Source of the DNA: Ophiura sarsii
Taxonomy: Eukaryota > Echinodermata > Ophiuroidea > Amphilepidida > Ophiuridae
Length of the DNA stretch: 64,000 nt
NCBI GenBank assembly: GCA_035610835.1
Contig: CM069449.1
Location: 40,345,098 to 40,409,097 of the forward strand
Direction: 5' to 3'
Positions within the stretch are counted from its first letter, which is position 1; each line of letters opens with the position of its first letter. Positions 23,140 to 64,000 of this stretch are shown here, piece after piece. The notes below the pieces were generated by a model, which did no database searches, was not told the DNA's origin, and saw only the letters and a list, made by a program, of their open reading frames with translations. A program made the translations under genes and the position numbers.

Positions 23140-24440
23140 TTATATTAGTCGAGAAACGACTAATATACTGTATTCATCCTGTTTCTTATATTAGTCGAGA
23201 AACGACTAATATACTGTATTCGTCCTGTTTCTTTCTTCTTCTTTATATTAGTCGAGAAACGACTAATATACTGTATTCTAGCTGTTTCTTATATTAGTCG
23301 AGAAACGACTAATATACTGTATTCTAGCTGTTTCTTTCTTATATTAGTCGAGAAACGACTAATATACTGTATTCTACCTGTTTCTTTCTTCTTTCTTCTT
23401 CTTCTTTCTTCTTCCGCCATGGGACCTATAGCTCCGTAACCATTGAGCCGATTTTGACCATATTTGGTCATAAGTACCCTTATGTGCACCACTACTCAGG
23501 TTGTAAAGCATAAGGGGTCAAAGGTCACACAAGGGTAACTAGGGGTCAAAACGTGATTTTCACTTAAAACGCATTTGCAATTTATTGAAATGACCTAGGA
23601 TCGTGAGAATTGGCCAACATATTCCTTTTGACCGTACGCATATATATTAGTTCGGTTTTTTAAATCGAAAAATGTTTGGGGTTACTAGGGGTCAAAATGT
23701 AAATTGTTACTCCATTCACTCAAAACCCTACTTGTCCGAGGGAAAATGACTGATGATACTCAGAATTAGTCAAAAGATTCCTTGGATCCATGTACATATA
23801 GGGTGCTTCTCCACTAAAAGTGAAATGTCAAACGGGGTCACTAGGGGTCATTGAACTTTACAAGGGGAAAATATAAGGCATGCTCCGATTTTGACCGAGT
23901 TTCTTTTATTTTGTGGGCATTGATGAGACAAGAACAAAAGTCAATCATACCGTTAAGGTCAAAGGTCAAGAAAAGGTCCCTAGGGATCAAAATGTACATT
24001 TTCACTCCGCGCACTCAAAATACTACTTGTCCGAGACGAAATGACCGATGATTGTCAGAATTTGTCAAAAGATTCCTCTTATCCATGTTCATATAGGGTG
24101 CTTCTCCATTAAAAGTGACATGTCAAACGGGGTCACTAGGGGTCATTGAACTATACAGGTGTAAAACTGAAGACATGCTCTGATTTTGACCGGACTACTT
24201 TATTCTTGTGCGCATTGATAAGCCAAGAAAAAAAGTCAATTATAAGTTTGGGGTCAAAGGTAAAGAAAAGGTCATTAGGGTTCAAAATGTATTTTTTAAC
24301 TACTTCAGGGCTGAAATTTATAAAAACAATTATCAAATATAGTACAACTTAAGGTTATTGCCCTTTGACAACATATAGCAAGGTCAAAGGTCAAAGCCCT
24401 CGACTAATATCCGTGATCTAAGATCACAATTATCTCTAGT
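23140..24440 (+). repeat. Array unit 1 (type A) with five stacked 5' palindromes
   Basis: This is the first unit of the array. It starts with five copies (23141, 23187, 23244, 23290, 23340) of a palindromic module: arms ATATTAGTCG and CGACTAATAT around AGAAA, then ACTGTATTC and CCTGTTTCTT. A TTC/TTTC microsatellite follows, then the common body beginning GGGACCTATAGCTCCG. It ends with CGACTAATAT, hairpin GTGATCTAAGATCAC, AATTATCT and CTAGT at 24436-24440. Confidence 0.85.
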
Positions 24441-25509
24441 ATGTTTTTGTATTTGTACGACAAAAACAAGAAATCTTCTTTCTTCCGTCATGGGACCTAT
24501 AGCTCCGCAACCATTGAGCCGATTTTGACCATATTTGGTCATAAGTACCCTTATGTGCACCACTACTCAGGTTGTAAAGCATAAGGGGTCAAAGGTCACA
24601 CAGGGGTCACTAGGGGTCAAAACGTGATTTTCACTTAAAACGCATTTGCAATTTAGTGAAATGACCTATGATCGTCAGAATTGGTCAACATATTCCTTTT
24701 GACCGTACGCATGTACAATAGTTCGGTTTTTTAAATCAACAAATATTTGGGGTCACTAGGGGTCAAAATGTTAATTTTACTCCATTCACTCAAAACCCTA
24801 CTTGTCCGAGGGAAAATGACTGATGATACTCAGATTTGGTCAAAAGATTCCTTGGATCAATGTACATATAGGGTGCTTCTACACTAAAAGTGACATGTCA
24901 AATGGGGTCACTAGGGGTCATTGAACTTTACAGGGGAAAATATAAGGCATGCTCCGATTTTGACCGGGTTTCCTTTATTTTGTGGGCATTGATGAGACAA
25001 GAACAAAAGTTAATCATAACGTTAAGGTCAAAGGTCAAAAAAAGGTCACTAGGGGTCAAAATGTACATATTCACTCCTCGCACTCAAAATACTACTTGTC
25101 CGAGAGAAAATGACCTATGACTGTCAGAATTAGTCAAAAGATTCCTCTTATCCATGTTCATATAGGGTGCTTCTCCACTAAAAGTGACATGTCACACGGG
25201 GTCACTAGAGGTCATTGAACTATACAAGTGAAAATCTTAAGACATGCCCCGATTTTGACGGAACTACTTTTTTCTTGCGCGCATTGATAAGCCAATAAAA
25301 ACGTCAATTATAAGTTTGGGGTCAAAGGTCAAGAAAAGGTCATTAGGGTTCAAAATGTATTTTTTTAACTACTTCAGGGCTGAAATTTATAAATACAATT
25401 ATCAAATATAGTACAACTTATGGTTATTGCCCTTTGACAACATATCGCAAGGTCAAAGGTCAAAGCCCTCGACTAATATCCGTGATCTAAGATCACAATT
25501 ATCTCTAGT
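24441..25509 (+). repeat. Array unit 2 (type A)
   Basis: It begins with the alternative 5' module ATGTTTTTGTATTTG...ACAAAAACAAGAAATC, which can also form a hairpin (GTTTTTGT with ACAAAAAC). It ends with the standard type A terminus and CTAGT at 25505-25509. It contains the clean DR1-DR5-DR4 half-site composite at 25025-25058. Confidence 0.85.
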
Positions 25510-26551
25510 TCTTCTTTCTTTCTTACGTCATGGGACCTATAGCTCCGTAACCATTCAGCCGATTTTGACCATATTTGGTCATAAGAACCCTTATGTGCAC
25601 CACTACTCAGGTTGTAAAGCATAAGGGGTCAAAGGTCACGCAAGGGTAACTAGGGGTCAAAACGTGATTTTCACTTAAAACGCATTTGCAATTTATTGAA
25701 ATGACCTAGGATCTTGAGAATTGGTCAACATATTCCTTTTGACCGTACGCATATATAATAGTTAGGTTTTTTAAATCGAAAAATGTTTGGGGTTACTAGG
25801 GGTCAAAATGTAAATTTTACTCCATTCACTCAAAACCCTACTTGTCCGAGGGAAAATGACTGATGATACTCAGAATTAGTCAAAAGATTCCTTGGATCTA
25901 TGTACATATAGGGTGCTTCTCCACTAAAAATGAAATGTCAAACATGGTCACTAGGGGTCATTGAACTTTACAGAGGGAAAATATAAGGCATGCTCCGATT
26001 TTGACCGGGTTTCTTTTATTTTGTGGGCATTGATGAGACAAGAACAAAAGTCAATCATACCGTTAAGGTCAAAGGTCAAAAAAAGGTCCCTAGGGGTCAA
26101 AATGTACATTTTCACTCTGCGCACTCAAAATACTACTTGTCCGAGACGAAATGACCGATGATTGTCAGAATTTGTCAAAAGATTCCTATTATCCATGTTC
26201 ATATAGGGTGCTTCTCCATTAAAAGTGACATGTCAAACGGGGTCACTAGGGGTCATTGAACTATACAGGTGTAAAACTGAAGACATGCTCTGATTTTGAC
26301 CGGACTACTTTATTCTTGTGCGCATTGATAAGCCAAGAAAAAAAGTCAATTATAAGTTTGGGGTCAAAGGTCATGAAAAGGTCATTAGGGTTCAAAATGT
26401 ATTTTTTTAACTACTTCAGGTCTGAAATTTATAAAAACAATTATCAAATATAGTACAACTTAAGGTTATTGCCCTTTGACAACATATAGCAAGGTCAAAG
26501 GTCAAAGCCCTCGACTAATATCCGTGATCTAAGATCACAATTATCTCTAGT
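25510..26551 (+). repeat. Array unit 3 (type A)
   Basis: It has no 5' palindrome: after CTAGT it goes straight into the TTC/TTTC microsatellite and the body. It has the standard type A end, with CTAG at 26547-26550. Confidence 0.85.
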
Positions 26552-27588
26552 TCTTTCTTTCTTTCTTTCTTTCTCCTGTCATAAGACCTATAGCTCCGTA
26601 ACCATTGAGCCGATTTTGACCATATTTGGTCATAAGTACCCTTATGTGCACCACTACTTAGGTTGTAAAGCATAAGGGGTCAAAGGTCACACAAAAATAA
26701 CTAGGGGTCAAAACGTGATTTTCACTTAAAACGCATTTGCAATTTATTGAAATGACCTAGGATCTTGAAAAATGGCCAACATATTCCTATATAATAGTTC
26801 GTTTTTTTAAATCGAAAAATGTTTGGGGTTACTAGGGGTCAAAATGTAAATTTTTACTTCATTCACTCAAAACCCTACTCGTCCGAGGGAAAATGACTGA
26901 TGATACTCAGAATTAGTCAAAAGATTCCTTGGATCCATGTACATATAGGGTGCTTCTCCACTAAAAGTGAAATGTCAAATGGGGTCACAAGGGGTCATTG
27001 AACTTTACAGGGGGAAAATATAAGGCATGCTCCGATTTTGACCGGGTTTCTTTTATTTTGTGGGCATTGATGAGACAAGAACAAAAGTCAATCATACCGT
27101 TAAGGTCAAAGGTCAGGAAAAGGTCGCTAGGGGTCAAAATGTACATTTTCACTCCGCGCACTCAAAATACTACTTGTCCGAGACGAAATGACCGATGATT
27201 GTCAGAATTTGTCAAAAGATTCCTCTTATCCATGTTCATATAGGGTGCTTCTCCATTAAAAGTGACATGTCAAACGGGGTCACTAGGGGTCATTGAACTA
27301 TACAGGTGTAAAACTGAAGACATGCTCTGATTTTGACCGGACTACATTTTTTCTTGTGCGCATTGATAAGCCAAGAAAAAAAGTAAATTATAAGTTTGGG
27401 GTCAAAGATCAAGAAAAGGTCATTAGGGTTCAAAATGTATTTTTTAACTACTTCAGGGCTGATATTTATAAAAACAATTATCAAATATAGTACAATTTAA
27501 GGTTATTGCCCTTTGACAACATATAGCAAGGTCGAAGGTCAAAGCCCTCGACTAATATCCGTGATCTAAGATCACAATTATCTCTAGT
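26552..27588 (+). repeat. Array unit 4 (type A)
   Basis: Microsatellite start (TTTC)n, body with a small deletion near 26790, and standard type A end at 27584-27588. Confidence 0.85.
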
Positions 27589-28659
27589 ATGTTTTTGTAT
27601 TTGTACGACAAAAACAAGAAATCTTCTTTCTTCCGTCATGAGACCTATAGCTCCGTACCCATTGACCCGATTTTGACCATATTTGGTCATAAGAACCCGT
27701 ATGTGCACCACTACTCAGGTTCTAAAGCATAAGGGGTCAAAGGTCACACAGGGGTCACTAGGGGTCAAAACGTGATTTTCACTTAAAACGCATTTGCAAT
27801 TTATTGAAATGACCTAGGATCGTGAGAATTGGCCAACATATTCCTTTTGACCGTACGCATATATAATAGTTTGGTTTTTTAAATCGAAAAAGGTTTGGGG
27901 TTACTAGGGGTCAAAATGTAAATTTTTACTCCATTCACTCAAAACCCTACTTGTCCGAGGAAAAATGACTGATGATACTCAGAATTAGTCAAAAGATTCC
28001 TTAGATCCATGTACATATAGGGTGCTTCTACACTAAAAGTGACATTTCAAACGGGGTCACTAGGGGTCATTGAACTATACAAATGTAAAACTGAAGACAT
28101 GCTCTGATTTTGACCGGACTACTTTTTTCTTGTGCGCATTGATAAGCCAAGAAAAAAAGTCAATCACAAGTTTGGGGTCAAAGGTCAAGAAAATGTCACT
28201 AGGGGTCAAAATGTAATTTTTCACGCCATTCACTCAAAATACTACTTGTCCGAGAGGAAATGACTGTTGATTGTCAGAATTGGTCAAAAGATTCCTCGTA
28301 TCAATGTTCATATAGGGTGCTCCTCCACTAAAAGTGACATGTCACACGGGGTCACTAGGAGTCATTGAACAATACAGGTGTAAAATTGAAGACATGCTCT
28401 GATTTTGACCGGACTACTTTTTTCTTGTGCGCATTGATAAGGCAAGAAAAAAGTCAATTATAACTTTGGGGTCAAAGGTCGAAAAACGGTCACAAGGGTT
28501 CAAAATGTATTTTTTTAACTACTTCAGGGCTGAAATTTATAAAAACAATTATCAAATACCGTACAACTTAAGGTTATTGCCCTTTGACAACATATAGCAA
28601 GGTCAAAGGTCAAAGCCCTCGACTAATATCCGTGATCTAAGATCACAATTATCTCTAGT
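27589..28659 (+). repeat. Array unit 5 (type A)
   Basis: It starts with the ATGTTTTTG hairpin module. The body has a different middle part from its neighbours (the CTCTGATTTTGACCGGACTAC subrepeat occurs twice, near 28100 and 28397). Type A end at 28655-28659. Confidence 0.85.
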
Positions 28660-29884
28660 TATATTAGTCGAGAAACGACTAATATACTGTATTCGTCCTG
28701 TTTCTTTCTTCTTTCTTTCTTTCTTTATATTAGTCGAGAAACGACTAATATACTGTATTCTAGCTGTTTCTTCTTCTTCTTTATATTAGTCGAGAAACGA
28801 CTAATATACTGTATTCTAGCTGTTTCTTCTTCTTCTTTCTTTCTTTCTTTCTTTCTCCTGTCATAAGGCCTATAGCTCCGTAACCATTGAGCCGATTTTG
28901 ACCATATTTGGTCATAAGTACCCTTATGTGCACCACTACTCAGGTTGTAAAGCATAAGGGGTCAAAGGTCACACAAGGGTAACTAGGGGCCAAAACGTGA
29001 TTTTCACTTAAAACGCATTTGCAATTTATTAAAATGACCTAGGATCTTGAGAATTGGCCAACATATTCCTTTTGACCGTACGCATGTATAATAGTTCGGT
29101 TTTTTAAATCGAAAAATGTTTGGGGTTACTAGGGGTCAAAATGTAAATTTTACTCCATTCACTCAAAACCCTACTTGTCCGAGGGAAAATGACTGATGAT
29201 ACTCAGAATTGGTCAAAAGATTCCTTGGATCCATGTACATATAGGGTGCTTCTCCACTAAAAATGAAATGTCAAACGGGGTCACTAGGGGTCATTGAACT
29301 TTACAGGGGGAAAATATATGGCATGCTCCGATTTTGACTGGTCTTCTTTTATTATGTGGGCATTGATGAGACAAGAACAAAAGTCAATCATACCATTAAG
29401 GTCAAAGGTCAAGAAAAGGTTCCTAGGGGTCAAAATGTACATTTTCACTCCGCGCACTCAAAATACTACTTGTCCGAGACGAAATGACCGATGATTGTCA
29501 GAATTTGTCAAAAGATTCCTCTTATCCATGTTCAAATAGGGTGCTTCTCCATTAAAAGTGACATGTCAAACGGGGTCACTAGGGGTCCTTGAACTATACA
29601 CGTGTAAAACTGAAGACATGCTCTGATTTTGACCGGACTACTTTTTTCTTGTGCGCATTGATAAGCCAAGAAAAAAAGTCAATTATAAGTTTGGGGTCAA
29701 AGGTAAAGAAAAGGTCATTAGGGTTCAAAATGTATTTTTTTAACTACTTCAGGGCTGAAATTTATAAAAACAATTATCACATATAGTACAACTTAAGGTT
29801 ATTGCCCTTTGACAACATATAGCAAGGTCAAAGGTCAAAGCCCTCGACTAATATCCGTGATCTAAGATCACAATTATCTCTAGT
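28660..29884 (+). repeat. Array unit 6 (type A) with three 5' palindromes
   Basis: ATATTAGTCG palindromes start at 28660, 28726 and 28782, each followed by TTC/TTTC stretches of different length. The body is nearly the same as unit 7, including the shared ATATATGGCATGCTCCG variant. Type A end at 29880-29884. Confidence 0.85.
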
Positions 29885-30931
29885 TCTTTCTTTCTTTCTT
29901 TCTCCTGTCATAAGGCCTATAGCTCCGTAACCATTGAGCCGATTTTGACCATATTTGGTCATAAGTACCCTTATGTGCACCACTACTCAGGTTGTAAAGC
30001 ATAAGGGGTCAAAGGTCACACAAGGGTAACTAGGGGCCAAAACGTGATTTTCACTTAAAACGCATTTGCAATTTATTGAAATGACCTAGGATCTTGAGAA
30101 TTGGCCAACATATTCCTTTTGACCGTACGCATGTATAATAGTTCGGTTTTTTAAATCGAAAAATGTTTGGGGTTACTAGGGGTCAAAATGTAAATTTTAC
30201 TCCATTCACTCAAAACCCTACTTGTCCGAGGGAAAATGACTGATGATACTCAGAATTGGTCAAAAGATTCCTTGGATCCATGTACATATAGGGTGCTTCT
30301 CCACTAAAAATGAAATGTCAAACGGGGTCACTAGGGGTCATTGAACTTTACAGGGGGAAAATATATGGCATGCTCCGATTTTGACTGGGTTTCTTTTATT
30401 ATGTGGGCATTGATGAGACAAGAACAAAAGTCAATCATACCATTAAGGTCAAAGGTTAAGAAAAGGTCCCTAGGGGTCAAAATGTACATTTTCACTCCGC
30501 GCACTCAAAATACTACTTGTCCGAGACGAAATGACCGATGATTGTCAGAATTTGTCAAAAGATTCCTCTTATCCATGTTCAAATAGGGTGCTTCTCCATT
30601 AAAAGTGACATGTCAAACGGGGTCACTAGGGGTCATTCAACTATACAGGTGTAAAACTGAAGACATGCTCTGATTTTGACTGGACTACTTTTTTCTTGTG
30701 CGCATTGATAAGCCAAGAAAAAAAGTCAATTATAAGTTTGGGGTCAAAGGTCAAGAAAAGGTCATTAGGGTTCAAAATGTATTTTTTTAACTACTTCAGG
30801 GCTGAAATTTATAAAAAAAATTATCACATATAGTACAACTTAAGGTTATTGCCCTTTGACAACATATAGCAAGGTCAAAGGTCAAAGCCCTCGACTAATA
30901 TCCGTGATCTAAGATCACAATTATCTCTAGT
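29885..30931 (+). repeat. Array unit 7 (type A)
   Basis: Microsatellite start. Shares rare variants with unit 6, so the two are recent duplicates. Type A end with CTAG at 30927-30930. Confidence 0.85.
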
Positions 30932-31981
30932 TCTTTCTTTCTTTCTTTCTTTCTTCCGTCATGGGACCTATAGCTCCGTAACCATTAGGCCGATTTTGAC
31001 CATATTTGGTCATAAGAACCCTTATGTGCACCACTACTCAGGTTGTAAAGCATAATGGGTCAAAGGTCACACAAGGGTAACTAGGGGTCAAAACGTGATT
31101 TTCACTTAAAACGAATTTGCAATTTATTGAAATGACCTAGGATCTTGAAAATTGGCCAACATATTCCTTTTGACCGTACGCATATATAATAGTTCGGTTT
31201 TTTAAATCGAAAAATGTTTGGGGTTACTAGGGGTCAAAATGTAAATTTTACTCCATTCACTCAAAACCCTACTTGTCCGAGGGAAAATGACTGATGATAC
31301 TCAGAATTAGTCAAAAGATTCCTTGGATCCATGTACATATAGGGTGCTTCTCCACTAAAAGTGAAATGTCAAAAGGGGTCACAAGGGGTCATTGAACTTT
31401 ACAGAGGGAAAATATAAGGCATGCTCCGATTTTGTCGGGGTTTCTTTTATTATGTGGGCATTGATGAGACAAGAACAAAAGGCAATCATACCGTTAAGGT
31501 CAAAGGTCAAAAAAAGGTCGCTAGGGGTCAAAATGTACATTTTCACTCAGCGCACTCAAAATACTACTTGTCCGAGACGAAATGACCGATGATTGTCAGA
31601 ATTTGTCAAAAGATTCCTCTTATCCATGTTCATATAGGGTGCTTCTCCATTAAAAGTGACATGTCAAACGGGGTCACTAGGGGTCATTGAACTATACAGG
31701 TGTAAAACTGAAGACATGCTCTGATTTTGACCGGACTACTTTTTTCTTGTGCGCATTGATAAGCCAAGAAAAAAAGTAAATTATAAGTTTGGGGTCAAAG
31801 GTCAAGAAAAGGTCATTAGGGTTCAAAATGTATTTTTTAACTACTTCAGGGCTGAAATTTATAAAAACAATTATCAATTATAGTACAACTTAAGGTTATT
31901 GCCCTTTGACAACATATAGCAAGGTCAAAGGTCAAAGCCCTCGACTAATATCCGTGATCTAAGATCACAATTATCTCTAGT
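30932..31981 (+). repeat. Array unit 8 (type A)
   Basis: Microsatellite start, standard body, type A end with CTAG at 31977-31980. Confidence 0.85.
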
Positions 31982-33060
31982 ATGTTTTTGTATTTGTACG
32001 ACAAAAACAGGAAATCTTTCTTTCTTCCGTCATGGGACCTATAGCTCCGTAACCATTGAGCCGATTTTGACCATATTTGGTCATAAGTACCCTTATGTGC
32101 ACCACTACTCAGGTTGTAAAGCATAAGGGGTCAAAGGTCACACAAGGGTAACTAGGGGTTAAACGTGATTTTCACTTAAAACGCATTTGAAATTTAGTGA
32201 AATGACCTAGGATCGTCAGAATTGGTCAACATATTCCTTTTGACCGTACGCATGTATAATAGTTCGGTTTTTAAAATCAAAAAATATTTGGGGTCCCTAG
32301 GGGTCAAAATGTAAATTTTTACTCCATTCACTCAAAACCCTACTTGTCCGAGGGAAAATGACTGATTATACTCAGAATTGGTCAAAAGAGTCCTTGGATC
32401 AATGTTCATATAGGGTGCTTCTACACTAAAAGTGACATGTCAAACGGGGTCACTAGGGGTCATTGAACTTTACAGGGGGAAAATATACGGCATGCTCCGA
32501 TTTTGACCGAGTTTCTTTTATTTTGTGGGCATTGATGAGACAAGAACAAAAGTCAATCATATCGTTAATGTCAAAGGTTAAGAAAAGGTCACTAGGTGTC
32601 AAAATGTAAATATTTACTCCTCGTTCTCAAAATACTACTTGTCCGAGAGAAAATGACTTATGATTGTCAGAATTAGTCATAAGATTCCTCTCATCCATGT
32701 TCATATAGGGTGCTTCTCCACTAAAAGTGACATGTCAAACAGGGTCACTAGGGGTCATTGAACTTTACAAGGGTAAAAGTTAAGACATGTTCTGATCTTG
32801 ACCGGTCATGGCTCATCTTGTAGGCATTGATGAGACAAGAAAAAAAGTCAATCATATTTTTGGGGTCAAAGGTCAAGAAAAGGTCACTAGGGGTCGAAAT
32901 GTACATTTTTACTCCATTAGGACCCCTAGTGACCTTTTCTTGACCTTTGACCCCCCCCCCCCCCCCCCAAAAAATGATTGACTTTTTTCTTGTCTCATCA
33001 ATGCCTACAAAATGAGCCATGACCGGTCAAAATGGGAGCAAGTCTTACATTTTACCCGGT
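31982..33060 (+). repeat. Array unit 9 ending in a foldback, without Helitron-like end
   Basis: It starts with the ATGTTTTTG module. From about 32790 the sequence folds back on itself: GGCATTGATGAGACAAGAAA...GGTCACTAGGGGTC is followed by its reverse complement (GACCCCTAGTGACC-type words) up to about 33060, with centre near 32915 and a poly-C run at 32950-32968. The unit therefore lacks the CTAGT terminus, and the array stops here. Confidence 0.8.
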
Positions 33061-33144
33061 GTGAATGAATTATCTGTCCTCTGGACGCATAATTCATTTT
33101 TAGTCGAACCTTGTTTAATATAGTCAACCCTGCTGGGTCCCTTA

Positions 33145-33222
33145 TATACTCCTCATATAGGTCTTATACCCATACCTTAACTACACAGAAATTGTCCAAT
33201 AAGACCTATATGAGGAGTATAT
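33145..33222. repeat. 78-bp palindrome 1 (CTCCTCATATAGGTCTTA)
   Basis: Arms ATACTCCTCATATAGGTCTT and AAGACCTATATGAGGAGTAT surround the spacer TACCTTAACTACACAGAAA. Confidence 0.8.
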
Positions 33223-33360
33223 TAAGGCTTGATCAAATTGCATTTCTTCAACCCAAAAACATTTGAAAACACAATTCAAGTTAAATAGTCGACACACTAA
33301 TATATTTCTCAAAAAGATCATAGCTTGTCTAGTATTAAGCATGTTAATAGTCGACACTCT

Positions 33361-33441
33361 ATTATGCTCCTCATATAGGTCTTAAATAGACATTTTTGTG
33401 TAGTTAACGTATAGGCGTAAGACCTATTTGAGGAGTATATA
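33361..33441. repeat. 78-bp palindrome 2
   Basis: Arms ATGCTCCTCATATAGGTCTT and AAGACCTATTTGAGGAGTAT. The spacer is in the opposite orientation to copy 1 (TGTGTAGTTAACGTATAGGCG). Confidence 0.8.
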
Positions 33442-33469
33442 AAGCTTGTTAGCGCTAGCCGACACTCTA

Positions 33470-33549
33470 TAATACTCCTCAAATAGGTCTTACGCCCATA
33501 CGTTAACTACACACAAATGTGCCTTTAAGACCTATATGAGGAGTATACT
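33470..33549. repeat. 78-bp palindrome 3
   Basis: Arms ATACTCCTCAAATAGGTCTT and AAGACCTATATGAGGAGTAT, spacer ACGCCCATACGTTAACTAC. Confidence 0.8.
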
Positions 33550-34267
33550 ACACTACGCAGCTGTCGAGAGCGTGTGACTGCTGAATAACGTTAGCTACTA
33601 TACCGTTTGAACACACGGCATAAAGCGTAACAATATAGTGGTGATCGTGTTGGCTATGTGTTTACACGACATTTGGCTAAACACGCCTGATGCTATCACT
33701 GGAGATTTGAACTCGTGGCGCTACATCATGACATTATGTACCATTGGGTCATTTACATGACAAGAAGAGAATTTTAAGGGAGCCACATCATACAATAAAC
33801 TATGATTTCATATTGGTAGCATGGCTATAATACTATACAGTGGTCATTAAAATATTTGAATACAGTCTAGACAGAACGCAATTCGTCATTTACATGAGAA
33901 ATAGACAATGTCTCTATCCGAATACAGAATTGAATACCTGGAGATTATTAATTTGGTAAGTTTTAAATGGTTGTTGCAACCATTCCGCAATTTGAATTCA
34001 GAAGTTTTTATAGACTGGGTGGAATATTACCTAAAACAAATATGTCCTACTTGCATTTTTCGGGCCATCACAAAATGAACCATTTTGCCACATATTGAGT
34101 GAAACAAATAGGTCTCATTCTTCATTTAAAACGTTCTTCCCCCAAAAAACTACTAAACCCCCTTTTTTGCTACGCAATTTCCCCCAACAGAAATCCCCTT
34201 GTCTGTCCTCCGGACGCATAATTCATTTTAGTTTAACCTTGTTTAATATAGGCCTAGTCAACCCCTT

Positions 34268-34347
34268 ATATGATCCTCATATAGGTCTTACGCCCATACC
34301 TAAACTACATTAAGAAGTGTCTTTAAGACCTAATTGAGGAGTATATT
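34268..34347. repeat. 78-bp palindrome 4
   Basis: Arms ATGATCCTCATATAGGTCTT and AAGACCTAATTGAGGAGTAT. It lies in the left copy of the roughly 430-bp duplication. Confidence 0.75.
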
Positions 34348-34691
34348 ACGCACGACATGACAAATAATTCGGATATTTTGTGACAAAATAACCTCATAAA
34401 AATGAAACAAAATGCCAAACAAACATTTAGTATTATAAACCATCCAAACAAATACATTGTAAAAACTTGCATTTTTCGTGTCACTTCAAAATGAACCATT
34501 TTGCCAAATATTTACTAAAACAAATAGGTCTCATTCTTGCACATTTAATCTTCTTCCCCCCCCCCAAAAAAAACCCTACTAAACCCCTCTTTTTTGCTAC
34601 GCAATTCCCCCCCCCCCCAACAGAAATCCCCTTGTCTGTCCTCCGGACGCATAATTCATTTTAGTTTAACCTTGTTTAATATAGTCAACCC

Positions 34692-52121: not shown

Positions 52122-53268
52122 TATATTAGTCGAGAAACGACTAATATACTGTATTTGTCCTGTTTCTTTCTTATATTAGTCGAGAAACGACTAATATACT
52201 GTATTCGTCCTGTTTCTTTCTTCTTCTTCTTCTTTCTTCTTCTTCCGCCATGGGACCTATAGCTCCGTAACCATTGGGTCGATTTTGACCATATTTGGTC
52301 AAAGGAACCCTTATGTGCACCACTACTCAGGTTGTAAAGCATAAGGGGTCAAAGGTCACACAAGGGTAACTAGGGGTCAAAACGTGATTTTCACTTAAAA
52401 CGCATTTGCAATTTATTGAAATGACCTAGGATCTTGAGAATTGGCCAACATATTCCTTTTGACTGTACGCATATATAATAGTTCGGTTTTTTAAATCGAA
52501 AAATGTTTGGGGTTACTAGGGGTCAAAATGTAAATTTTACTCCATTTACTCAAAACCCTACTTGTCCGAGGGAAAATGACTGATGATACTCAGAATTAGT
52601 CAAAAGATTCCTTGGATCCATGTTCATATAGGGTGCTTCTCCACTAAAAGTGAAATGTCAAACGGGGTCACTAGGGGTCATTGAACTTTACAAGGGGAAA
52701 ATATAAGGCATGCTCCGATTTTGACCGAATTTCTTTTATTTTGTGGGCATTGATGAGACAAGAACAAAAGTCAATCATACCATTAAGGTCAAAGGTCAAG
52801 AAAAGGTCCCTAGGGGTCAAAATGTACATTTTTACTCCGCGCACTCAAAATACTACTTGTCAGAGACGAAATGACCGATGATTGTCAGAATTTATCAAAA
52901 GATTCCTCTTATCCATGTTCAAATAGGGTGCTTCTCCATTAAAAGTGAAATGTCAAACGGGGTCACTAGGGGTCATTGAACTATACAGGTGTAAAACTGA
53001 AGACATGCTCTGATTTTGATCGGACTACTTTTTTCTTGTGCGCATTGATAAGCCAAGAAAAAAGTCAATAATAAGTTTGGGGTCAAAGGTCAAGAAAAGG
53101 TCATTAGGGTTCAAAATGTATTTTTTTAACTACTTCAGGGCTGAAATTTATAAACAATTATCAAATATAGTACAACTTAAGGTTATTGCCCTTTGACAAC
53201 ATATAGCAAGGTCAAAGGTCAAAGCCCTCGACTAATATCCGTGATCTAAGATCACAATTATCTCTAGT
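52122..53268 (+). repeat. Array unit 21 (type A) with two 5' palindromes
   Basis: Palindromes at 52122 and 52172. The first roughly 500 bp copy unit 14, then it diverges from it. CTAGT 53264-53268. Confidence 0.85.
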
Positions 53269-54311
53269 TCTTTCTTTCTTTCTCCTGTCATAAGGCCTAT
53301 AGCTCCGTAACCATTGAGCCGATTTTGACCATATTTGGTCATAAGTACCCTTATGTGCACCACTACTCAGGTTGTAAAGCATAAGGGGTCAAAGGTCACA
53401 CAAGGGTAACTAGGGGTCAAAACGTGATTTTCACTTAAAAAGCATTTGCAATTTATTGAAATGACCTAGGATCTTGAGAATTGGCCAACATATTCCTTTT
53501 GACCGTACGCATATATAATAGTTCGGTTTTTTAAATCGAAAAATGTTTGGGGTTACTAGGGGTCAAAATGTAAATTTTACTCCATTCACTCAAAACCCTA
53601 CTTGTCCGAGGGAAAATGACTGATGATACTCAGAATTGGTCAAAAGATTCCTTGGATCCATGTACATATAGGGTGCTTCTCCACTAAAAATGAAATGTCA
53701 AACGGGGTCACTAGGGGTCCTTGAACTTTACAGGGGGAAAATATAAGGCATGCTCCGATTTTGACCGGGTTTCTTTTATTTTGTGGGCATTGATGAGACA
53801 AGAACAAAAGTCAATCATATTGTTAAGGTCAAAGGTCAAAAAAAGGTCCCTAGGGGTCAAAATGTACATTTTCACTCCGCGCACTCAAAATACTACTTGT
53901 CCGAGACGAAATGACCGATTATTGTCAGAATAGGTCAAAAGATTCCTCTTATCCATGTTCATATAGGGTGCTTCTCCATTAAAAGTGACATGTCAAACGG
54001 GGTCACTAGGGGTCATTGAACTATACAATTGTAAAACTGAAGACATGCTCTGATTTTGACCGGACTACTTTTTTCTTGTGCGCATTGATAAGCCAAGAAA
54101 AAAAGTCAATTATAAGTTTGGGGTCAAAGGTCAAGAAAAGGTCATTAGGGTTCAAAATGTATTTTTTTAACTACTTCAGGGCTGAAATTTATAAAAACAA
54201 TTATCACATATAGTACAACTTAAGGTTATTGCCCTTTCACAACATATAGCAAGGTCAAAGGTCAAAGCCCTCGACTAATATCCGTGATCTAAGATCACAA
54301 TTATCTCTAGT
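53269..54311 (+). repeat. Array unit 22 (type A)
   Basis: (TTTC)n start, 1043 bp, standard type A end with CTAG 54307-54310. Confidence 0.85.
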
Positions 54312-55354
54312 TCTTTCTTTCTTTCTCCTGTCATAAGGCCTATAGCTCCGTAACCATTGAGCCGATTTTGACCATATTTGGTCATAAGTACCCTTATGTG
54401 CACCACTACTCAGGTTGTAAAGCATAAGGGGTCAAAGGTCACACAAGGGTAACTAGGGGTCAAAACGTGATTTTCACTTAAAACGCATTTGCAATTTTTT
54501 GAAATGACCTAGGATCTTGAAAATTGGCCAACATATTCCTTTTGACCGTACGCATATATAATAGTTCGGTTTTTTAAATCGAAAAATGTTTGGGGTTACT
54601 AGGGGTCAAAATGTAAATTTTACTCCATTCACTCAAAACCCTACTTGTCCGAGGGAAAATGACTGATGATACTCAGAATTAGTCAAAAGATTCCTTCGAT
54701 CCATGTACATATAGGGTGCTTCTCCACTAAAAGTGGAATGTCAAACGGGGTCACTAGGGGTCATTGAACTTTACAGAGGGAAAATATAAGGCATGCTCCG
54801 ATTTTGACCGAGTTTCTTTTATTATGTGGGCATTGATGAGACAAGAACAAAAGTCAATCATACCGTTAAGGTCAAAGTTCAAGAAAAGGTCCCTAGGGGT
54901 CAAAATGTACATTTTCACTCCGCGCACTCAAAATACTACTTGTCCGAGACGAAATGACCGATGATTGTCAGAATTTGTCAAAAGATTCCTCTTATCCATG
55001 TTCATACAGGGTGCTTCTCCATTAAAAGTGACATGTCAAACAGTGTCACTAGGGGTCATTGAACTATACAGGTGTAAAACTGAAGACATGCTCTGATTTT
55101 GACCGGACTACTTTTTTCTTGTGCGCATTGATAAGCCAAGAAAAAAAGTCAATTATAAGTTTGGGGTCAAAGGTCAAGAAAAGGTCATTAGGGTTTAAAA
55201 TGTATTTTTTTAACTACTTCAGGGCTGAAATTTATAAAAACAATTATCAAATATAGTACAACTTAAGGTTATTGCCCTTTGACAACATATAGCAAGGTCA
55301 AAGGTCAAAGCTCTCGACTAATATCCGTGATCTAAGATCACAATTATCTCTAGT
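54312..55354 (+). repeat. Array unit 23 (type A)
   Basis: (TTTC)n start, 1043 bp, type A end with CTAGT at 55350-55354. Confidence 0.85.
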
Positions 55355-56400
55355 TCTTCTTTCTTTCTTTCTTCCGTCATGGGACCTATAGCTCCGTAAC
55401 CATAAAGCAGATTTTGACCATATTTGGTCATAAGAACCCTTATGTGCACCACTACTCAGGTTGTAAAGCATAAGGGGTCAAAGGTCACACAAAAATAACT
55501 AGGGGTCAAAACGTTATTTTCACTTAAAACGCATTTGCAATTTAGTGAAATGACCTAGGATCGTCAGAATTGGCCAACATATTCCTTTTGACCGTACGCA
55601 TATATAATAGTTCGGTTTTTTAAATCAACAAATGTTTGGGATTACTAGGGGTCAAAATGTAAATTTTTACTTCATCACTCAAAACCCTACTCGTCCGAGG
55701 GAAAATGACTGATGATACTCAGAATTGGTCAAAAGATTCCTTGGATCCATGTACATATAGGGTGCTTCTCCACTAAAAGTGAAATGTCAAACGGGGTCAC
55801 AAGGGGTCATTGAACTTTACAAGGGGAAAATATAAGGCATGCTCCGATTTTGACCGGGTTTCTTTTATTTTGTGGGCATTGATGAGACAACAACAAAAGT
55901 CAATCATACCGTTAAGGTCAAAGGTCAAAAAAAGGTCCCTAGGGGTCAAAATGTACATTTTCACTCCGCGCACTCAAAATGCTACTTGTCCGAGACGAAA
56001 TGACCGATGATTGTCAGAATTTGTCAAAAGATTCCTCTTATCCATGTTCATATAGGGTGCTTCTCCATTAAAAGTGACATGTCAAACGGGGTCACTAGGG
56101 GTCATTGAACTATACAAGTGTAAAACTGAAGACATGCTCTGATTTTGACCGGACTACTTTTTTCTTGTGCGCATTGATAAGCCAAGAAAAAAAGTCAATT
56201 ATAAGTTTGGGGTCAAAGGTCAAGAAAAGGTCATTAGGGTTCAAAATGTATTTTTTTAACTACTTCAGGGCTGAAATTTATAAAAACAATTATCAAATAT
56301 AGTACAACTTAAGGTTATTGCCCTTTGACAACATATAGCAAGGTCAAAGGTCAAAGCCCTCGACTAATATCCGTGATCTAAGATCACAATTATCTCTAGT
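55355..56400 (+). repeat. Array unit 24 (type A)
   Basis: TTC/TTTC start, 1046 bp, CTAGT 56396-56400. Confidence 0.85.
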
Positions 56401-57471
56401 ATGTTTTTGTATTTGTACGACAAAAACAAGAAATCTTCTTTCTTCCGTCATGGGACCTATAGCTCCGCAACCATTGAGCTGATTTGGACCATATTTGGTC
56501 ATAAGAACCCTTATGTGCACCACTACTCAGGTTGTAAAGCATAAGGGGTCAAAGGTCACACAAGGGTAACTAGGGGTCAAAACGTGATTTTCACTTAAAA
56601 CGCATTTGCAATTTATTGAAATGACCTAGGATCGTGAGAATTGGCCAACATATTCCTTTTGACCGTACGCATATATAATAGTTAGGTTTTTTAAATCGAA
56701 AAATGTTTGGGGTTACTAGGGGTTAAAATGTAAATTTTACTCCATTTACTCAAAACCCTACTTGTCCGAGGGAAAATGACTGATGATACTCAGAATTAGT
56801 CAAAAGATTCCTTGGATCCATGTACATATAGGGTGCTTCTCCACTAAAAGTGAAATGTCAAACGGGGTCACTAGGGGTCATTGAACTTTACAGGGGGAAA
56901 ATATAAGGCATGCTCCGATTTTGACCGAGTTTCTTTTATTTAGTGGGCATTGATGAGACAAGAACAAAAGTCAATCATACCGTTAAGGTCAAAGGTCAAG
57001 AAAAGGTCCCATGGGGTCAAAATGTACATTTTCACTCCGCGCACTCAAAATACTACTTGTCCGAGACGAAATGACCGATGATTGTCAGAATTTGTCAAAA
57101 GATTCCTCTTATCCATGTTCATATAGGGTGCTTCTCCATTAAAAGTGACGTGTCAAACGGGGTCACTAGGAGTCATTGAACTATACAGGTGTAAAACTGA
57201 AGACATGCTCTGATTTTGACCGGACTACTTTATTCTTGTGCGCATTGATAAGCCAAGAAAAAAAGTTAACTATAAGTTTGGGGTCAAAGGTCAAGAAAAG
57301 GTCATTAGGGTTCAAAATGTATTTTTTTAACTACTTCAGGGCTGAAATTTATAAAAACAATTATCAAATATAGTACAATTTAAGGTTATTGCCCTTTGAC
57401 AACATATAGCAAGGTCAAAGGTCAAAGCCCTCGACTAATATCCGTGATCTAAGATCACAATTATCTCTAGT
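56401..57471 (+). repeat. Array unit 25 (type A)
   Basis: ATGTTTTTG hairpin start, standard body, type A end with CTAG 57467-57470. Confidence 0.85.
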
Positions 57472-59085
57472 TCTTTCTTCTTTCTTCTTTCTCCTGTCAT
57501 GGGACCTATAGCTCCGTAACCATTGAGCCGATTTTGACCATATTTGGTCATAAGAACCCTTATGTGCACCACTACTCAGGTTGTAAAGCATAAGGGGTCA
57601 AAGGTCACACAAGGGTATCTAGGGGTCAAAACGTGATTTTCACTTAAAACGTATTTGCAATTTAATGAAATGACCTAGGATCGTCAGAATTGGCCAACAT
57701 ATTCCTTTTGACCGTACGCATATATAATAGTTCGGTTTTTTAAATCGAAAAATGTTTGGGGTCACTAGAGGGCAAAATGTAAATTTTAACTCATTCACTC
57801 AAAATGCTACTTGTCCGAGAGCAAATGACTGATGATACTCAGAATTGGTCAAAAGATTCCTTGGGTCCATGTTCATTTAGGGTGCTTCTCCACTAAAAGT
57901 GACATTTCAAACGGGGTCACTAGGGGTCATTGAACTATACAGGTGTGAAACTGAAAACATGCTCTGATTTTGACCGGACTACTTTTTTCTTGTGCGCAAT
58001 GATAAGCCAAGAAAAAGTCAATCATAAGTTTGGGGTCAAAGGTCAAGAAAATGTCACTAGGGGTCAAAATGTAATTTTTCACTCCATTCACTCAAAATAC
58101 TACTTGTCCGAGAGGAAATGACTGATGATTTGTCAGAATTGGTCAAAAGATTTCTCGTATCAATGTTCATATAGGGTGCTCCTCCACTAAAAGTGACATG
58201 TCACACGGGGTCCCTAGGGGTCATTGACCTAAACAAGGATATAATGTAAGACATGCTCCGATATTGACCGATCACGGCTCATTGTGTAGGCATTGATGAG
58301 ACAAGCAAAAAAGTCAACCATTTCTTTGGGGTCAAAGGTCAAAAAAAGGTCACTAGGGGTCGAAATGTACATTTTTACTACATTAGGACCCCTAGTGACC
58401 TTTTCTTGACCTTTGACCCCCAAAAAATGATTGACTTTTTTTCTTGTCTTATCAATGCCTACAAAATGAGCCATAACCGGTCAAAATCGGAGCAAGTCTT
58501 AAATTTTACCCTGTATAACCTTTTAAAAAAATCTATGTCTTAATAATTATTCGATTTAAAATAAAGTTATACAGGGTAAAATGTAAGACTTGCTCCGATA
58601 TTGACCGATCATGGCTCATTGTGTAGGTATTGATGAGACAAGCAAAAAAGTCAACCATTTCTTTGGGGTCAAAGGTCAAAAAAGGTCACTAGGGGTCGAA
58701 ATGTACATTTTTACTACATTAGGACCCGTAGTGACCTTTTCTTGACCTTTGACCCCAAAAAAATGATTGACCTTTTTTTGTCTCATCAATGCCTACAAAA
58801 TGAGTCATAACCGGTCAAAATCGGAGCAAGTCTTAAATTTTACCCTGTATAACCTTTAAAAAAAATCTATGTCTTAATAATTATTCGATTTAAAAAAAAT
58901 ATATATACAGGGTAAAATGTAAGACTTGCTCCGATTTTAACCGATCATGGCTCAATTATCAACTATAGTTCAATTTAAGATATGATAAGATTATTGCCCT
59001 TTGACAACAGACATCATATACCAAGGTCAAAGGTCAACACGCCCTCGACTAATATCCGTGATCTATGATCACAATTATCTCTAGT
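57472..59085 (+). repeat. Array unit 26 (type A with inserted foldbacks)
   Basis: The body runs normally to about 58215 and then enters two and a half foldback segments: about 58232-58515, 58569-58851 and a half copy from 58906. The complete one has ends reading TATACAGGGTAAAATGTAAG and its complement. A type A terminus, with hairpin variant GTGATCTATGATCAC, follows with CTAGT 59081-59085. Confidence 0.8.
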
Positions 59086-60606
59086 TATATTAGTCGAGAA
59101 ACGACTAATATACTGTATTCGTCCTGTTTCTTATATTAGTCGAGAAACGACTAATATACTGTATTCGTCCTGTTTCTTTCTTCTTCGTCTTCTTTCTTCT
59201 TCTGTCATGGGACCTATAGCTCCATAACCATTGACCCGATTTTGACCATATTTGGTCAAAAGAACCCTTATGTGCACCACTACTCAGGTTGTAAAGCATA
59301 AGGGGTCAAAGGTCACACAGGGGTCACTAGGGGTCAAAACGTGATTTTCACTTAAAACGCATTTCCAATTTAGTGAAATGACCTAGGATCGTCAAAATTG
59401 GTCCACATATTCCTTTTGACCGTACGCATGTACAAAGAACGGTTTTTAAAATTAAAAATCATTTGGGGTCACTAGGGGTCAAAATGTAAATTTTACTCCA
59501 TTCACTCAAAACCCTACTTGTCCGAGGGGAAATGACTGATGATACTCAGAATTGGTCAAAAGATTCCTTGGATCAATGTTCATATAGGGTCCTTCCACAC
59601 TAAAAGTGACATATCAAACGGGGTCACTAGGGGTCATTGAACTTTACAGTGGGAAAATATAACGCATGCTCCGATTTTGACCGGGTTTCTTTTATTTTGT
59701 GGGCATTGATGAGACAAGAACAAAAGTCAATCATATTGTTAATATCAAAGGTCAAGAAAAGGTCACTAGGGGTCAAAATGTACATTTTCACTCTTCGCAC
59801 TCAAAATACTACTTGTCCAAGAGATAATGACCTATGATTGTCAGAATTAGTCAAAAGATTCCTCTTATCCATGTCCATATAGGGTCCTTCTCCACCAAAA
59901 GTGACATGTCACACGAGGTCACTAGAGGTCATTGAACTATACAGGTGAAAATCTTAAGACATGCTCCGATTTTAACGGGACTACTTTTTTCTTGTGCGCA
60001 TTGATCAGCCAAGCAAAAAAGTCAATTACAAGTTTTGGGTCAGAGGTCAAAAAAAGGTCACTAGGGGTCAAAACGTGATTTTCTCTAAAAACGCATTTGC
60101 AATTTAGTGAAATGACCTAGGATCGTCAGAATTGGTCAACATATTCCTTTTGACCGTACGCATGTACAATAGTTAGGTTTTTAAAATCAAAAAATATTTG
60201 GGGTCACTAGGGGTCAAAATGTAAATTTTCACTCCATTCACTCAAAATGCTACTTGTCCGAGAGGAAATGACCTATGATTGTCAGAATTAGTCAAAAGGT
60301 TCCTCTCATCCATGTTCATATAGGGTCCTTCTCCACTAAAAGTGACATTTCACACGGGGTCACTAGAGGTCATTGAACTTTACAAGTGAAAATCTTAAAA
60401 CATGATCCGATTTTGACGGGACTACCTTTTTCTTGTGCGCATTGATCAGCCAAGCAAAAAAGTCAATTACAAGTTTTGGGTCAGAGGTCAAGAAAAGGTC
60501 ACTAGGGGTTCAACTGTATTTATTTACTCCATTTACCACTCGAAGGGGTTAACATGTAACACACCCGACTAATATTCGTGATCTCCGATCACAGGTCATG
60601 TCTAGT
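59086..60606 (+). repeat. Array unit 27 (type B) with two 5' palindromes
   Basis: Palindromes at 59086 and 59132, type B body and end, CTAGT 60602-60606. Confidence 0.85.
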
Positions 60607-62145
60607 TTCTTCTTCTCCTGTCATGGGACCTATAGCTCCGTAACCATTGACCCGATTTTGACCATATTTGGTCATAAGAACCCTTGTATGCACCACTACT
60701 CAGGTTGTAAAGCATAATGGGTCAAAGGTCACACAGGGGTCACTAGGGGTCAAAACGTGATTCAACATGCTCCGATTTTGCTCAAACTTTAACACTTTGT
60801 GCGCATTGACAAGAAAAGAAAAAAAGTCAATCATGACCTTGGGGTCAAATGTCAAACAGGGGTCATTAGGGGTCAAAACGTGATTTTCACTTAAAACGCA
60901 TTTCCAATTTAGTGAAATGGTCAGGATCGTCAAAATTGGTCCACATATTCCTATTGACCGTACGCATGTACAAAAGAAAGGTTTTTAAAATTAAAAATCA
61001 TTTGGGGTCACTAGGGGTCAAAATGTAAATTTTACTCCATTCACTCAAAACCCTACTTGTCCGAGGGAAAATGACTGATGATACTCAGAATTGGTCAAAA
61101 GATTCCTTGGATCAATGTACATATAGGGTCCTTCCACACTAAAAGTGACATGTCAAACGGGGTCACTAGGGGTCATTGAACTTTACAGGGGGAAAATATA
61201 AGGCATGCTCCGATTTTGACCGGGTTTCTTTTATTTTGTGGGCATTGATAAGACAAGAACAAAAGTCAATCATACCGTTAAGATCAAAGGTCAATAAAAG
61301 GTCACTAGGGGTCAAAATGTACATTTTTACTCCTCGCACTCAAAATACTACTTGTCCAAGAGATAATGACCTATGATTGTCAGAATTTGTCAAAAGATTC
61401 CTCTTATCCATGTCCATATAGGGTCTTTCTCCACTAAAAGTGACATGTCACACAAGGTCACTAGAGGTCATTGAACTATACAGGTGAAAATCTTAAGACA
61501 TGCTCCGATTTTGACAGGTTTACTTTTTTCTTGTGCGCATTGATCAGCCAAGCAAAAAAGTCAATAACAAGTTTTGGGTCAGAGATCAAGAAAAGGTCAC
61601 TAGGGGTCAAAACGTGATTTTCACTAAAAACGCATTTGCAATTTAGTGAAATGACCTAGGATCGTCAGAATTGGTCAACATATTCCTTTTGACCGTACGC
61701 ATGTACAATAGTTCGGTTTTTAAAATCAAAAAATATTTGGGGTCACTAGGGGTCAAAATGTAAATTTTCACTCCATTCACTCAAAATGCTACTTGTCCGA
61801 GAGGAAATGACCTATGATTGTCAGAATTAGTCAAAAGGTTCCTCTCATCCATGTTCATATAGGGTCCTTCTCCACTAAAAGTGACATGTCACACGGGGTC
61901 ACTAGAGGTCATTGAACTTTACAAATGAAAATCTTAAAACATGCTCCGATTTTGACGGGACTACCTTTTTCTTGTGCGCATTGATCAGCCAAGCAAAAAA
62001 GTCAATTACAAGTTTTGGGTCAGAGGTCAAGAAAAGGTCACTAGGGGTTCAACTGTATTTATTTACTCCATTTACCACTCGAAGGGGTTAACATGTAACA
62101 CACCCGACTAATATTCGTGATCTCCGATCACAGGTCATGTCTAGT
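60607..62145 (+). repeat. Array unit 28 (type B)
   Basis: TTC start, extra GTGATTCAACATGCTCCG segment near 60760 as in units 15 and 19, type B end CTAGT 62141-62145. Confidence 0.85.
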
Positions 62146-63614
62146 TATATTAGTCGAGAAACGACTAATATACTGTATTCGTCCTGTTTCTTCTTCTTCT
62201 TCTTTCTCCTGTCATGGGACCTATAGCTCCGTAACCGTTGACCCGATTTTGACCATATTTGGTCATAAGAACCCTTATGGGCACCACTACTCAGGTTGTA
62301 AAGCATAAGGGGTCAAAGGTCACACAGGGGTCACTAGGGGTCAAAACGTGATTTTCACTTAAAACGCATTTCCAATTTAGTGAAATGACCTAGGATCGTC
62401 AAAATTGGTCCACATATTCCTTTTGACCGTACGCATGTACAAAAGAACGGTTTTTAAAATTAAAAATCATTTGGGGTCACTAGGGGTCAAAATGTAAATT
62501 TTACTCCATTCACATAAAACCCTACTTGTCCGAGGGAAAATGACTGATGATACTCAGAATTGGTCAAAAGATTCCTTTGATCAATGTTCATATAGGGTCC
62601 TTCCACATTAAAAGTGACATGTCAAACAGGGTCACTAGGGGTCATTGAACTTTACAGTGGGAAAATATAACGCATGCTCCGATTTTGACCGGGTTTCTTT
62701 TATTTTGTGGGCATTGATGAGACAAGAACAAAAGTCAATCATACCGTTAAGATCAAAGGTCAAAAAAAGGTCACTAGGGGTCAAAATGTACATTTTCACT
62801 CCTCGCACTCAAAATACTACTTGTCCAAGAGATAATGACCTATAATTGTCAGAATTAGTCAAAAGATTCCTCTTATCCATGTCCATATAGGGTCCTTCTC
62901 CACTAAAAGTGACATGTCACACGAGGTCACTAGAGGTCATTGAACTATACAGGTGAAAATCTTAAGACATGCTCCGATTTTAACAAAACTACTTTTTTCT
63001 TGTGCGCATTGATCAGCCAAGCAAAAAAGTCAATTACAAGTTTTGGGTCAGAGGTCAAAAAAAGGTCACTAGGGGTCAAAACGTGATTTTCACTAAAAAC
63101 GCATTTGCAATTTAGTGAAATGACCTAGGATCGTCAGAATTGGTCAACATATTCCTTTTGACCGTACGCATGTACAATCGTTCGGTTTTTAAAATCAAAA
63201 AATATTTGGGGTCACTAGGGGTCAAAATGTAAATTTTCACTCCATTCACTCAAAATGCTACTTGTCCGAGAGGAAATGACCTATGATTGTCAGAATTAGT
63301 CAAAAGGTTCCTCTCATCCATGTTTATATAGGGTCCTTCTCCACTAAAAGTGACATGTCACACGGGGTCACTAGAGGTCATTGAACTTTACAGGTGAAAA
63401 TCTTAAAACATGCTCCGATTTTGACAGGACTACCTTTTTCTTGTGCGCATTGATCAGCCAAGCAAAAAAGTCAATTACAAGTTTTGGGTCAGAGGTCAAG
63501 AAAAGGTCACTAGGGGTTCAACTGTATTTATTTACTCCATTTACCACTCGAAGGGGTTAACATGTAACACACCCGACTAATATTCGTGATCTCCGATCAC
63601 AGGTCATGTCTAGT
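62146..63614 (+). repeat. Array unit 29 (type B)
   Basis: One 5' palindrome, type B body and end, CTAGT 63610-63614. Confidence 0.85.
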
Positions 63615-64000
63615 ATGTTTTTGTATTTGGTTGACAAAAACAAGAAATCTTTCTTTCTTCTGTCATGAGACCTATAGCTCCGTAACCATTGAGCCGATTT
63701 TGACCATATTTGGTCATAAGAACCCTTATGTGCACCACTACTCAGGTTGTAAAGCATAAGGGGTCAAAGGTCACAAAGGGGTCACTAGGGGTCAAAACGT
63801 GATTTTCACTTAAAACGCATTTCCAATTTAGTGAAATGACCTAGGATCGTCAAAATTGGTCCACATATTCCTTTTGACCGTACGCATGTACAAAAGAACG
63901 GTTTTTAAAATTAAAAATCATTTGGGGTCACTAGGGGTCAAAATGTAAATTTTACTCCATTCACTAAAAACCCTACTTGTCCGAGGGAAAATGACTGATG
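63615..64000 (+). repeat. Array unit 30 (partial, runs off the window)
   Basis: ATGTTTTTG hairpin start and the first part of the body. The array evidently continues to the right of the window. Confidence 0.85.

Follow-up and report, generated by a model that had tools for sequence, protein, structure and literature searches.

A satellite-looking array of Ophiura sarsii as a probable nest of non-autonomous Helentrons in their own 5' microsatellites

How a dispersed transposon comes to fill a long array is debated, and the question is raised anew by a stretch of Ophiura sarsii DNA (GenBank assembly GCA_035610835.1, contig CM069449.1, here C9). In the 64,000 nucleotides that were analyzed (C9:40345098-40409097, hereafter the window), similar units follow one another head-to-tail and on a single strand (+) from position 23140 onward, with interruptions by DNA that is foreign or inverted (for example, at about 32914-35943). 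Based on our analysis, this satellite-looking array is probably a nest of non-autonomous Helentrons (HINEs) that grew through repeated insertion of elements into their own 5' microsatellite; the assignment of the units to the Helentron/HINE group is more secure than this account of their accumulation.

For the reading of the array the window was joined to 40 kb of its right flank (combined positions). The nested HINE array occupies C9:40368237-40438905 (70.7 kb) and is flanked by host DNA on both sides. The left host flank ends in ...CTATTTG, and the right edge lies at combined position 93808 (C9:40438905), 29.8 kb past the window end, where CTAG is followed by TTGTTTTTTGAAATC and no further unit. 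The original prediction, a reading of the letters of the window, described an array of more than 40 kb; its start at 23140 stands, and its extent had to be enlarged beyond position 64000.

The 3' ends are uniform. All 27 hairpins of the form GTGATC-NNN-GATCAC in the window have CGACTAATAT 2 bases upstream and CTAG 8-9 bases downstream, the base after CTAG is T in 27/27, and the motif was absent from 100 dinucleotide shuffles, so that the predicted set of 27 ends with subterminal repeat, hairpin and CTAG before T is exact. We parsed 11 loci with 120 bodies. T adjoins the 3' end in 117/117 ends and is the first base of 85/86 heads. By energy the 6-bp hairpin of the 3' end is weak: folding of two ends gave z -0.65 and -1.86.

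At the 5' side, ATATTAGTCG occurs 25 times in the window, and each copy forms the leading arm of a palindromic module, TATATTAGTCG-loop-CGACTAATATA (25/25 heads). This head (P) is a 46-bp module, TTATATTAGTCG-AGAAA-CGACTAATATA-CTGTATT-variable-TGTTTC, that leads into TTTC/TTC; one head folded as DNA gave an 11-bp hairpin of -8.6 kcal/mol, equalled by 0/200 shuffles. Downstream of the heads lie TTTC/TTC microsatellites, and the bodies are occupied by internal tandem repeats of ~295 bp. Body family A measures about 1.04 kb with a 3' end ...AATTATCTCTAG, and family B about 1.45 kb with a 3' end ...AGGTCATGTCTAG and a 2.32-kb form, BB; besides these there are a few diverged bodies. Five BB copies of exactly 2320 bp were found in the window and right flank, with 4-15 differences, differing flanks and three kinds of left neighbor (an A end, a B end, the TTTC of a head). 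Among all 86 heads, 45 directly follow a T/C tract and 29 directly follow CTAG.

Bodies start in three ways. Of 29 starts in the window, 11 are P starts, with a head or stacked heads directly before the body; 10 are headless (S), with CTAG followed immediately by microsatellite and body; and eight are M starts, in which CTAG is followed by a second hairpin, TATGTTTTTGTATTTG...GACAAAAACAAGAAATC, and then by microsatellite and body. The predicted complement of the subterminal repeat at the beginning of the units is present in the heads (25/25), and it fails as a description of the bodies, of which only those 11 begin directly behind a head. The units of the window are as follows.

23140-64000 (+): nested HINE array, continuing to C9:40438905
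23140-24439 (+): five stacked P heads (23140, 23186, 23243, 23289, 23339), microsatellite, A body, 3' end
24440-25508 (+): M-start unit, A-type 3' end
25509-26550 (+): headless (S) unit, A body, 3' end
26551-27587 (+): headless (S) unit, A body of the ATAAG subtype, 3' end
27588-28658 (+): M-start unit, diverged body, A-type 3' end
28659-29883 (+): three stacked P heads (28659, 28725, 28781), A body of the ATAAG subtype, 3' end
29884-30930 (+): headless (S) unit, A body of the ATAAG subtype
30931-31980 (+): headless (S) unit, A body of the CCGTC subtype
31981-36382 (+): M-start unit, body interrupted from about 32913 to about 35944 by foreign/inverted DNA, A-type 3' end
36383-37673 (+): TTCTTC microsatellite piece, five stacked P heads (36389, 36435, 36481, 36528, 36574), A body
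37674-38764 (+): single P head, A body of the CCGCC subtype
38765-40214 (+): M-start unit, B body
40215-41362 (+): two P heads, A body of the CCGCC subtype
41363-43682 (+): single P head, long B body (BB, 2320 bp); four differences from 47693-50012, flanks differ
43683-45154 (+): single P head, B body
45155-46605 (+): M-start unit, B body
46606-47645 (+): headless (S) unit whose old body breaks off at about 47521 and lacks a 3' end of its own; inverted fragments follow
47646-50012 (+): P head at 47646, then P head at 47693 with BB body and 3' end; this BB element begins immediately behind the first head's TTTC
50013-52120 (+): M-start unit, B body, insert at about 50103-50759
52121-53267 (+): two P heads, A body of the CCGCC subtype
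53268-54310 (+): headless (S) unit, A body of the ATAAG subtype
54311-55353 (+): headless (S) unit, A body of the ATAAG subtype
55354-56399 (+): headless (S) unit, A body of the CCGTC subtype
56400-57470 (+): M-start unit, A body
57471-59084 (+): headless (S) unit, diverged body, A-type 3' end
59085-60605 (+): two P heads, B body
60606-62144 (+): headless (S) unit, B body
62145-63613 (+): single P head, B body
63614-64000 (+): M-start unit, incomplete at the window end

The units at 31981-33060 and 46606-47645 consist of a partial body followed by inverted body sequence, and a combination of body positions 1-928 with inverted 490-624 recurs at several places in the genome; because the junction recurs, these may represent a separate longer element. 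Within the foreign DNA that interrupts the array, a palindromic element with TACTCCTCATATAGGTCTTA-like sequences is present several times (33100-35100).

Stacked heads and headless bodies would both follow from a single kind of event. Each element carries a hairpin head T-ATATTAGTCG...CGACTAATATA, shortly afterwards a TTTC/TTC microsatellite, then a body whose center is made up of tandem repeats, and at the 3' side the subterminal repeat complementary to that of the head, followed by a hairpin and CTAG. It would insert between Ts, its own T-rich 5' microsatellite being the commonest landing site inside arrays. Such an insertion would split the resident, leaving head and left part of the microsatellite upstream and placing the rest of the microsatellite with the body directly after the CTAG of the newcomer; after several rounds, heads would be stacked on the upstream side and their headless bodies would follow on the downstream side, the last element to enter being the first to close (last-in-first-out). 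Since every newcomer would bring a new microsatellite and leave two pieces of the old one, targets would multiply and the locus would grow. Where an insertion lies directly after CTAG, the event is possibly no different, the first TT of a leftover piece of microsatellite having served as target. The insertions would presumably be made by a single-strand rolling-circle reaction driven by Rep/helicase, by analogy with related elements, and a target preference, rather than chance or selection, may direct them into the microsatellite.

Under nested insertion, heads and bodies should balance like brackets. Six arrays were taken as complete for the tests of balance and order, leaving aside C14, C6, C5a and C11 (cut at an edge or unclear); 22 M bodies were excluded from the balance. 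We counted 55 P heads and 57 non-M bodies, distributed (heads/bodies) as 30/31 in the main array, 3/3 in C12, 4/5 in C9b, 2/2 in C10, 8/7 in C5b and 8/9 in C9c. The left edge of C9c is a matter of judgement, as a further unit ends six bases upstream of its first head; TTATTA before that head and TTATTATTG after the last end were taken as host, and without this array the balance is 47 heads to 48 non-M bodies. The first array of C2, read by eye, has two heads and two bodies. The window alone contains 25 heads and 21 non-M bodies, from which four surplus closings were predicted beforehand for the right flank; this flank contained five headless bodies, five heads each with its own body, and no surplus head.

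The order of the units agrees with nesting as well. Read from left to right, 3/57 bodies lacked an open head, compared with 10.1 when the unit order was shuffled within arrays (p 0.0026; p 0.0034 with another seed), and without C9c the values were 2/48 and 7.6 (p 0.009). Among all starts that could be parsed by the pattern in the 11 loci, the microsatellite averaged 8.7 between stacked heads (n=36), 19.5 at headless starts (n=38) and 26.3 where head and body are uninterrupted (n=42); the two split pieces thus add up to 28.2, near the uninterrupted length.

Subtypes provide a further check. In the 48 directly adjoining head-body pairs, TAGC heads go with ATAAG bodies (4/4) and TAAC/TACC heads with CCGCC bodies (6/7), while the other 37 heads precede B (24), CCGTC (7), CCGCC (3) and other bodies (3). 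Last-in-first-out pairing assigned heads to 33 of the 42 headless bodies, and six of the nine without an open head are in C14 and C6, which are cut on the left. The 33 pairs match in subtype above shuffles (p 0.016 within arrays, p 0.00025 overall), and 8/12 ATAAG headless bodies meet a TAGC head.

Similarity between bodies was compared for 118 of the 120, two being too diverged. The nearest relative was the adjacent unit in 3/118 (shuffled mean 1.8, p 0.26) and lay in another array in 86/118. Together with the unit order, which fits nested insertion, these values led us to abandon the wording of the original prediction that a rolling-circle element had turned into a satellite; a locally homogenized satellite, in which neighbors are the closest relatives, does not describe this locus.

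Two further HINE-like families, Q and R, are nested in the main array at combined positions 84543-91007 in the right flank. There, a Q head (ACCTTGATTTTTTCAAAAATCGAGGT) holds R; the head of R is TTATATTGGTTT..AAACCAATATA, and its tail combines R's own subterminal repeat with the hairpin GTGCTTC-TCG-AAGCAC. A Q head (ACCTTGATTTTTTCAAAAATC-GAGGT plus microsatellite) likewise precedes arrays C12 and C9b, which share a single other body sequence downstream. This sequence also follows the R tail and probably belongs to the Q head, and the other families are taken to nest as P and S units do.

The M starts are of a different kind. All 31 found by probe in the 11 loci lie directly after CTAG, and their hairpin has a 9-bp stem (2/200 shuffles equally good). 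ACGAC variants are followed by an A-type end in 17/17 cases with an end found (one more has no end in view), GTTGAC variants by a B-type end in 11/12, and one further variant by an A-type end; the end preceding the M unit is of the other type in 4/30 cases with both ends known. In similarity, M bodies fall among those of P and S units, a pattern suggestive of a repeated origin or of heads exchanged by way of the microsatellite. We also considered dimers (unit-CTAG-M unit) moving as one and rejected them: M units had M units as nearest relatives 11 times against 7.9 by chance (p 0.23), and among 26 B bodies only one fitting first-M pair was found (C14_9467 and main_81673; 98.3%, in similar trimers). 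A broader proposal, which we offer tentatively and regard as doubtful in its entirety, is that there are two docking sites, P-type elements entering the 5' TTTC/TTC repeat of a resident and M-type elements only its CTAG. The element would then be its own safe haven, with intervals carrying full Rep frames in the same piles, and would exemplify a general route from dispersed transposon to satellite-like locus, the insertion order being written in the brackets.

Several observations weigh against nesting as a complete account. Nested insertion predicts P and S starts and leaves M starts unexplained. Head and body counts are off by one in 4/6 arrays, the order test is significant in no single array (main array, p 0.13), 4/12 ATAAG headless bodies pair with the wrong head subtype, 12/86 heads have neither a T/C tract nor CTAG in front of them, same-array nearest relatives are in excess (32 compared with 20.9 shuffled, p 0.03), and no uninterrupted Q element was seen. 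From the count imbalances and wrong pairings it follows that other processes must contribute, be they deletions, exchange or the transposition of double-headed elements; the identical pairs of heads at 40215-41362 and 52121-53267 suggest elements moving with two heads.

Among the alternatives, formation as rolling-circle concatemers survives best, though we consider it improbable. Replication past the 3' terminator, or on a circle without one, would yield several copies or 5' ends at once, as in the plant model of Xiong et al. 2016 given in passages of PMC12628747, according to which a plant array often combines a single 3' end with many 5' ends. Head-to-tail order with all window array units on one strand would follow naturally, as would the four tandem M units at C12 and the run of three BB units that spans 68715-75674 in the extended array. 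However, these three adjacent BB copies differ from one another by 8, 9 and 11, much as they do from the two distant copies (8-15), neighbors are rarely nearest relatives, surplus heads are balanced by headless bodies, and stacks of at least two heads are of mixed subtype in 11/21.

Stacks and headless units could also have arisen independently, through local duplication of 5' heads with microsatellite slippage or recombination and loss of heads elsewhere. The 46-bp head with its microsatellite does resemble a minisatellite, M bodies mix with P and S bodies as if heads had been swapped, and off-by-one imbalances and wrong pairings are present; this process does not predict the balance of 55 to 57, the additivity of microsatellite lengths or the mixed stacks, and we rate it slightly below concatemers. 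An ordinary satellite, grown from a single founding tandem of HINEs by unequal crossing-over, would suit the 70 kb of tandem order, the excess of same-array relatives and the large near-identical blocks of the window (38855-41364 with 50760-53269, 41363-43683 with 47693-50013), but it is very unlikely, as adjacent units are nearest relatives no more often than in shuffles, most nearest relatives are in other arrays, and stacked heads and headless bodies in near-equal numbers are not predicted.

Nested non-autonomous Helentrons would need a partner that supplies the protein, and the original prediction had asked for a Rep element with matching termini. A profile search for Helitron_like_N (PF14214) gave 249 candidates, of which 150 were scored and listed, many of them within open frames that exceed 2,000 codons; none were found in 14 control genomes. 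At C1 46.84-47.13 Mb, a cluster far larger than the window array, seven PF14214 frames alternate with runs of B-type ends, at least 93 of which are perfect and on the + strand (of 100 listed). The distances from frame start to the next listed end are 6601, 16832, 6591, 7411, 10686 and 6192; the seventh frame has no perfect end among those listed after it in the cluster. Two intervals between successive listed ends, C1:46977010 to 46995653 (18,643 bases) and C1:47080821 to 47099474 (18,653 bases), contain one listed PF14214 frame each. Both start, directly after CTAG, with a P head and the start of a B-type body (97.2% for L050 and 96.6% for L051 against the main array, preceding end included), and the sequence before their 3' ends is B-type (L054 99.5%, L055 98.0%). 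The other two starts examined before Rep-bearing gaps were a stack of four heads (L052) and a headless start (L053). As only perfect B-type ends were listed for C1, mismatched or A-type ends may hide inside the 18.6-kb intervals. Matching termini are thus present at the level of interval ends, pointing to these Rep-bearing intervals as a candidate autonomous partner, judged by sequence, whose protein is directly testable.

The units are widespread in the genome searched (1.57 Gb, 748 contigs). A 1,069-bp unit as query gave at least 134 matches on many contigs (35 of 4,367 candidates scored), and the B-type 3' end (41 bases, at most two mismatches) occurs 1,988 times (1121 + 867), with 0 matches for the reversed control. 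Small arrays bounded by host DNA on both sides are found at C10 and C2; an apparent solitary copy at C1:56.1 Mb adjoins another 3' end and is part of a tandem, and a second candidate for a solitary copy lies at C1:72.69 Mb. With respect to coding content, the longest stop-to-stop frame overlapping 23-64 kb has 95 aa, and of ten window frames compared with Pfam only 19981-20484 had a match. This exon-like frame on the minus strand encodes an F5/8 type C (discoidin) domain (E 4.4e-22), in keeping with a eukaryotic genome.

A prokaryotic or viral origin was considered and rejected: searches with exact patterns for the 3' end, for the head and for the start of the body found 0 matches in viral contigs, the A-type 3' end gave 0 matches in the genome contigs collection, and one array unit used as query had no phage match. 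In the array part of the window (23137-64000) we counted 33 copies of AGGTCAAAGGTCA, which we take to be the nuclear receptor motif DR1, and none in the 23 kb that precede the array; A units carry this sequence a short distance upstream of their 3' end.

If every pair of brackets stands for one insertion, the array seems to preserve a record of how it grew, so that a single sequence reveals insertion order, subfamily waves and target choice. The microsatellite that HINEs retain at the 5' end may be a landing pad for kin. Helitron-like elements of Lepidoptera reportedly disrupt (GAAA)n microsatellites, to go by the title of Coates et al. 2010, and GAAA is TTTC on the other strand, the motif found here. 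In the literature surveyed, which did not include Coates 2010 and Xiong 2016, we found no description of Helentrons nesting in their own microsatellite.

A canonical Helitron (Helitron1) has a 5' TC, a 3' CTRR and inserts between A and T; the CTAG of our units fits, but they start with T-TATATTAG, T flanks the end and the heads start with T. The comparison with HINEs and Helitron2 is closer, as a 5' repeat with hairpin, an inverse 3' repeat with hairpin, a microsatellite and central tandem repeats are all present. In passages of PMC3627910, Helitron2 shares with our units the end hairpins, asymmetric terminal inverted repeats, a 5' T and, in our units probably, insertion after T tracts; unlike here, nesting or tandem arrays are not described in these passages. 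For arrays derived from transposable elements (TEs), passages of PMC12628747 give rolling-circle concatemers, insertion via target-site duplications and unequal exchange as explanations, and include plant tandem Helitrons (Xiong et al. 2016) and Drosophila TE dimers (McGurk and Barbash), which resemble our locus as TE-derived arrays. Insertion-site preference is named there as the main source of TE dimers, with multiple insertion occurring via target-site duplications, whereas here the target would be a simple repeat inside the element. The HINE layout given in parts of PMC4067079 and PMC7492417, with a 5' subterminal repeat and its complement, a microsatellite, central repeats, and a 3' subterminal repeat with palindrome, is that of our units, in agreement with the predicted Helentron/HINE-like ends; HINE / DINE-1-like Helentrons (PMC4067079) and the oyster Cg_HINE (PMC7492417) share with them this layout and, in our units probably, insertion among Ts. 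As described in those parts, known HINEs are dispersed singles, or form clusters by bypassed termination or with 3'-truncated inner copies, whereas here whole elements would have built a 70-kb nest via the microsatellite. The element is of a known kind, and what is unusual is its mode of accumulation.

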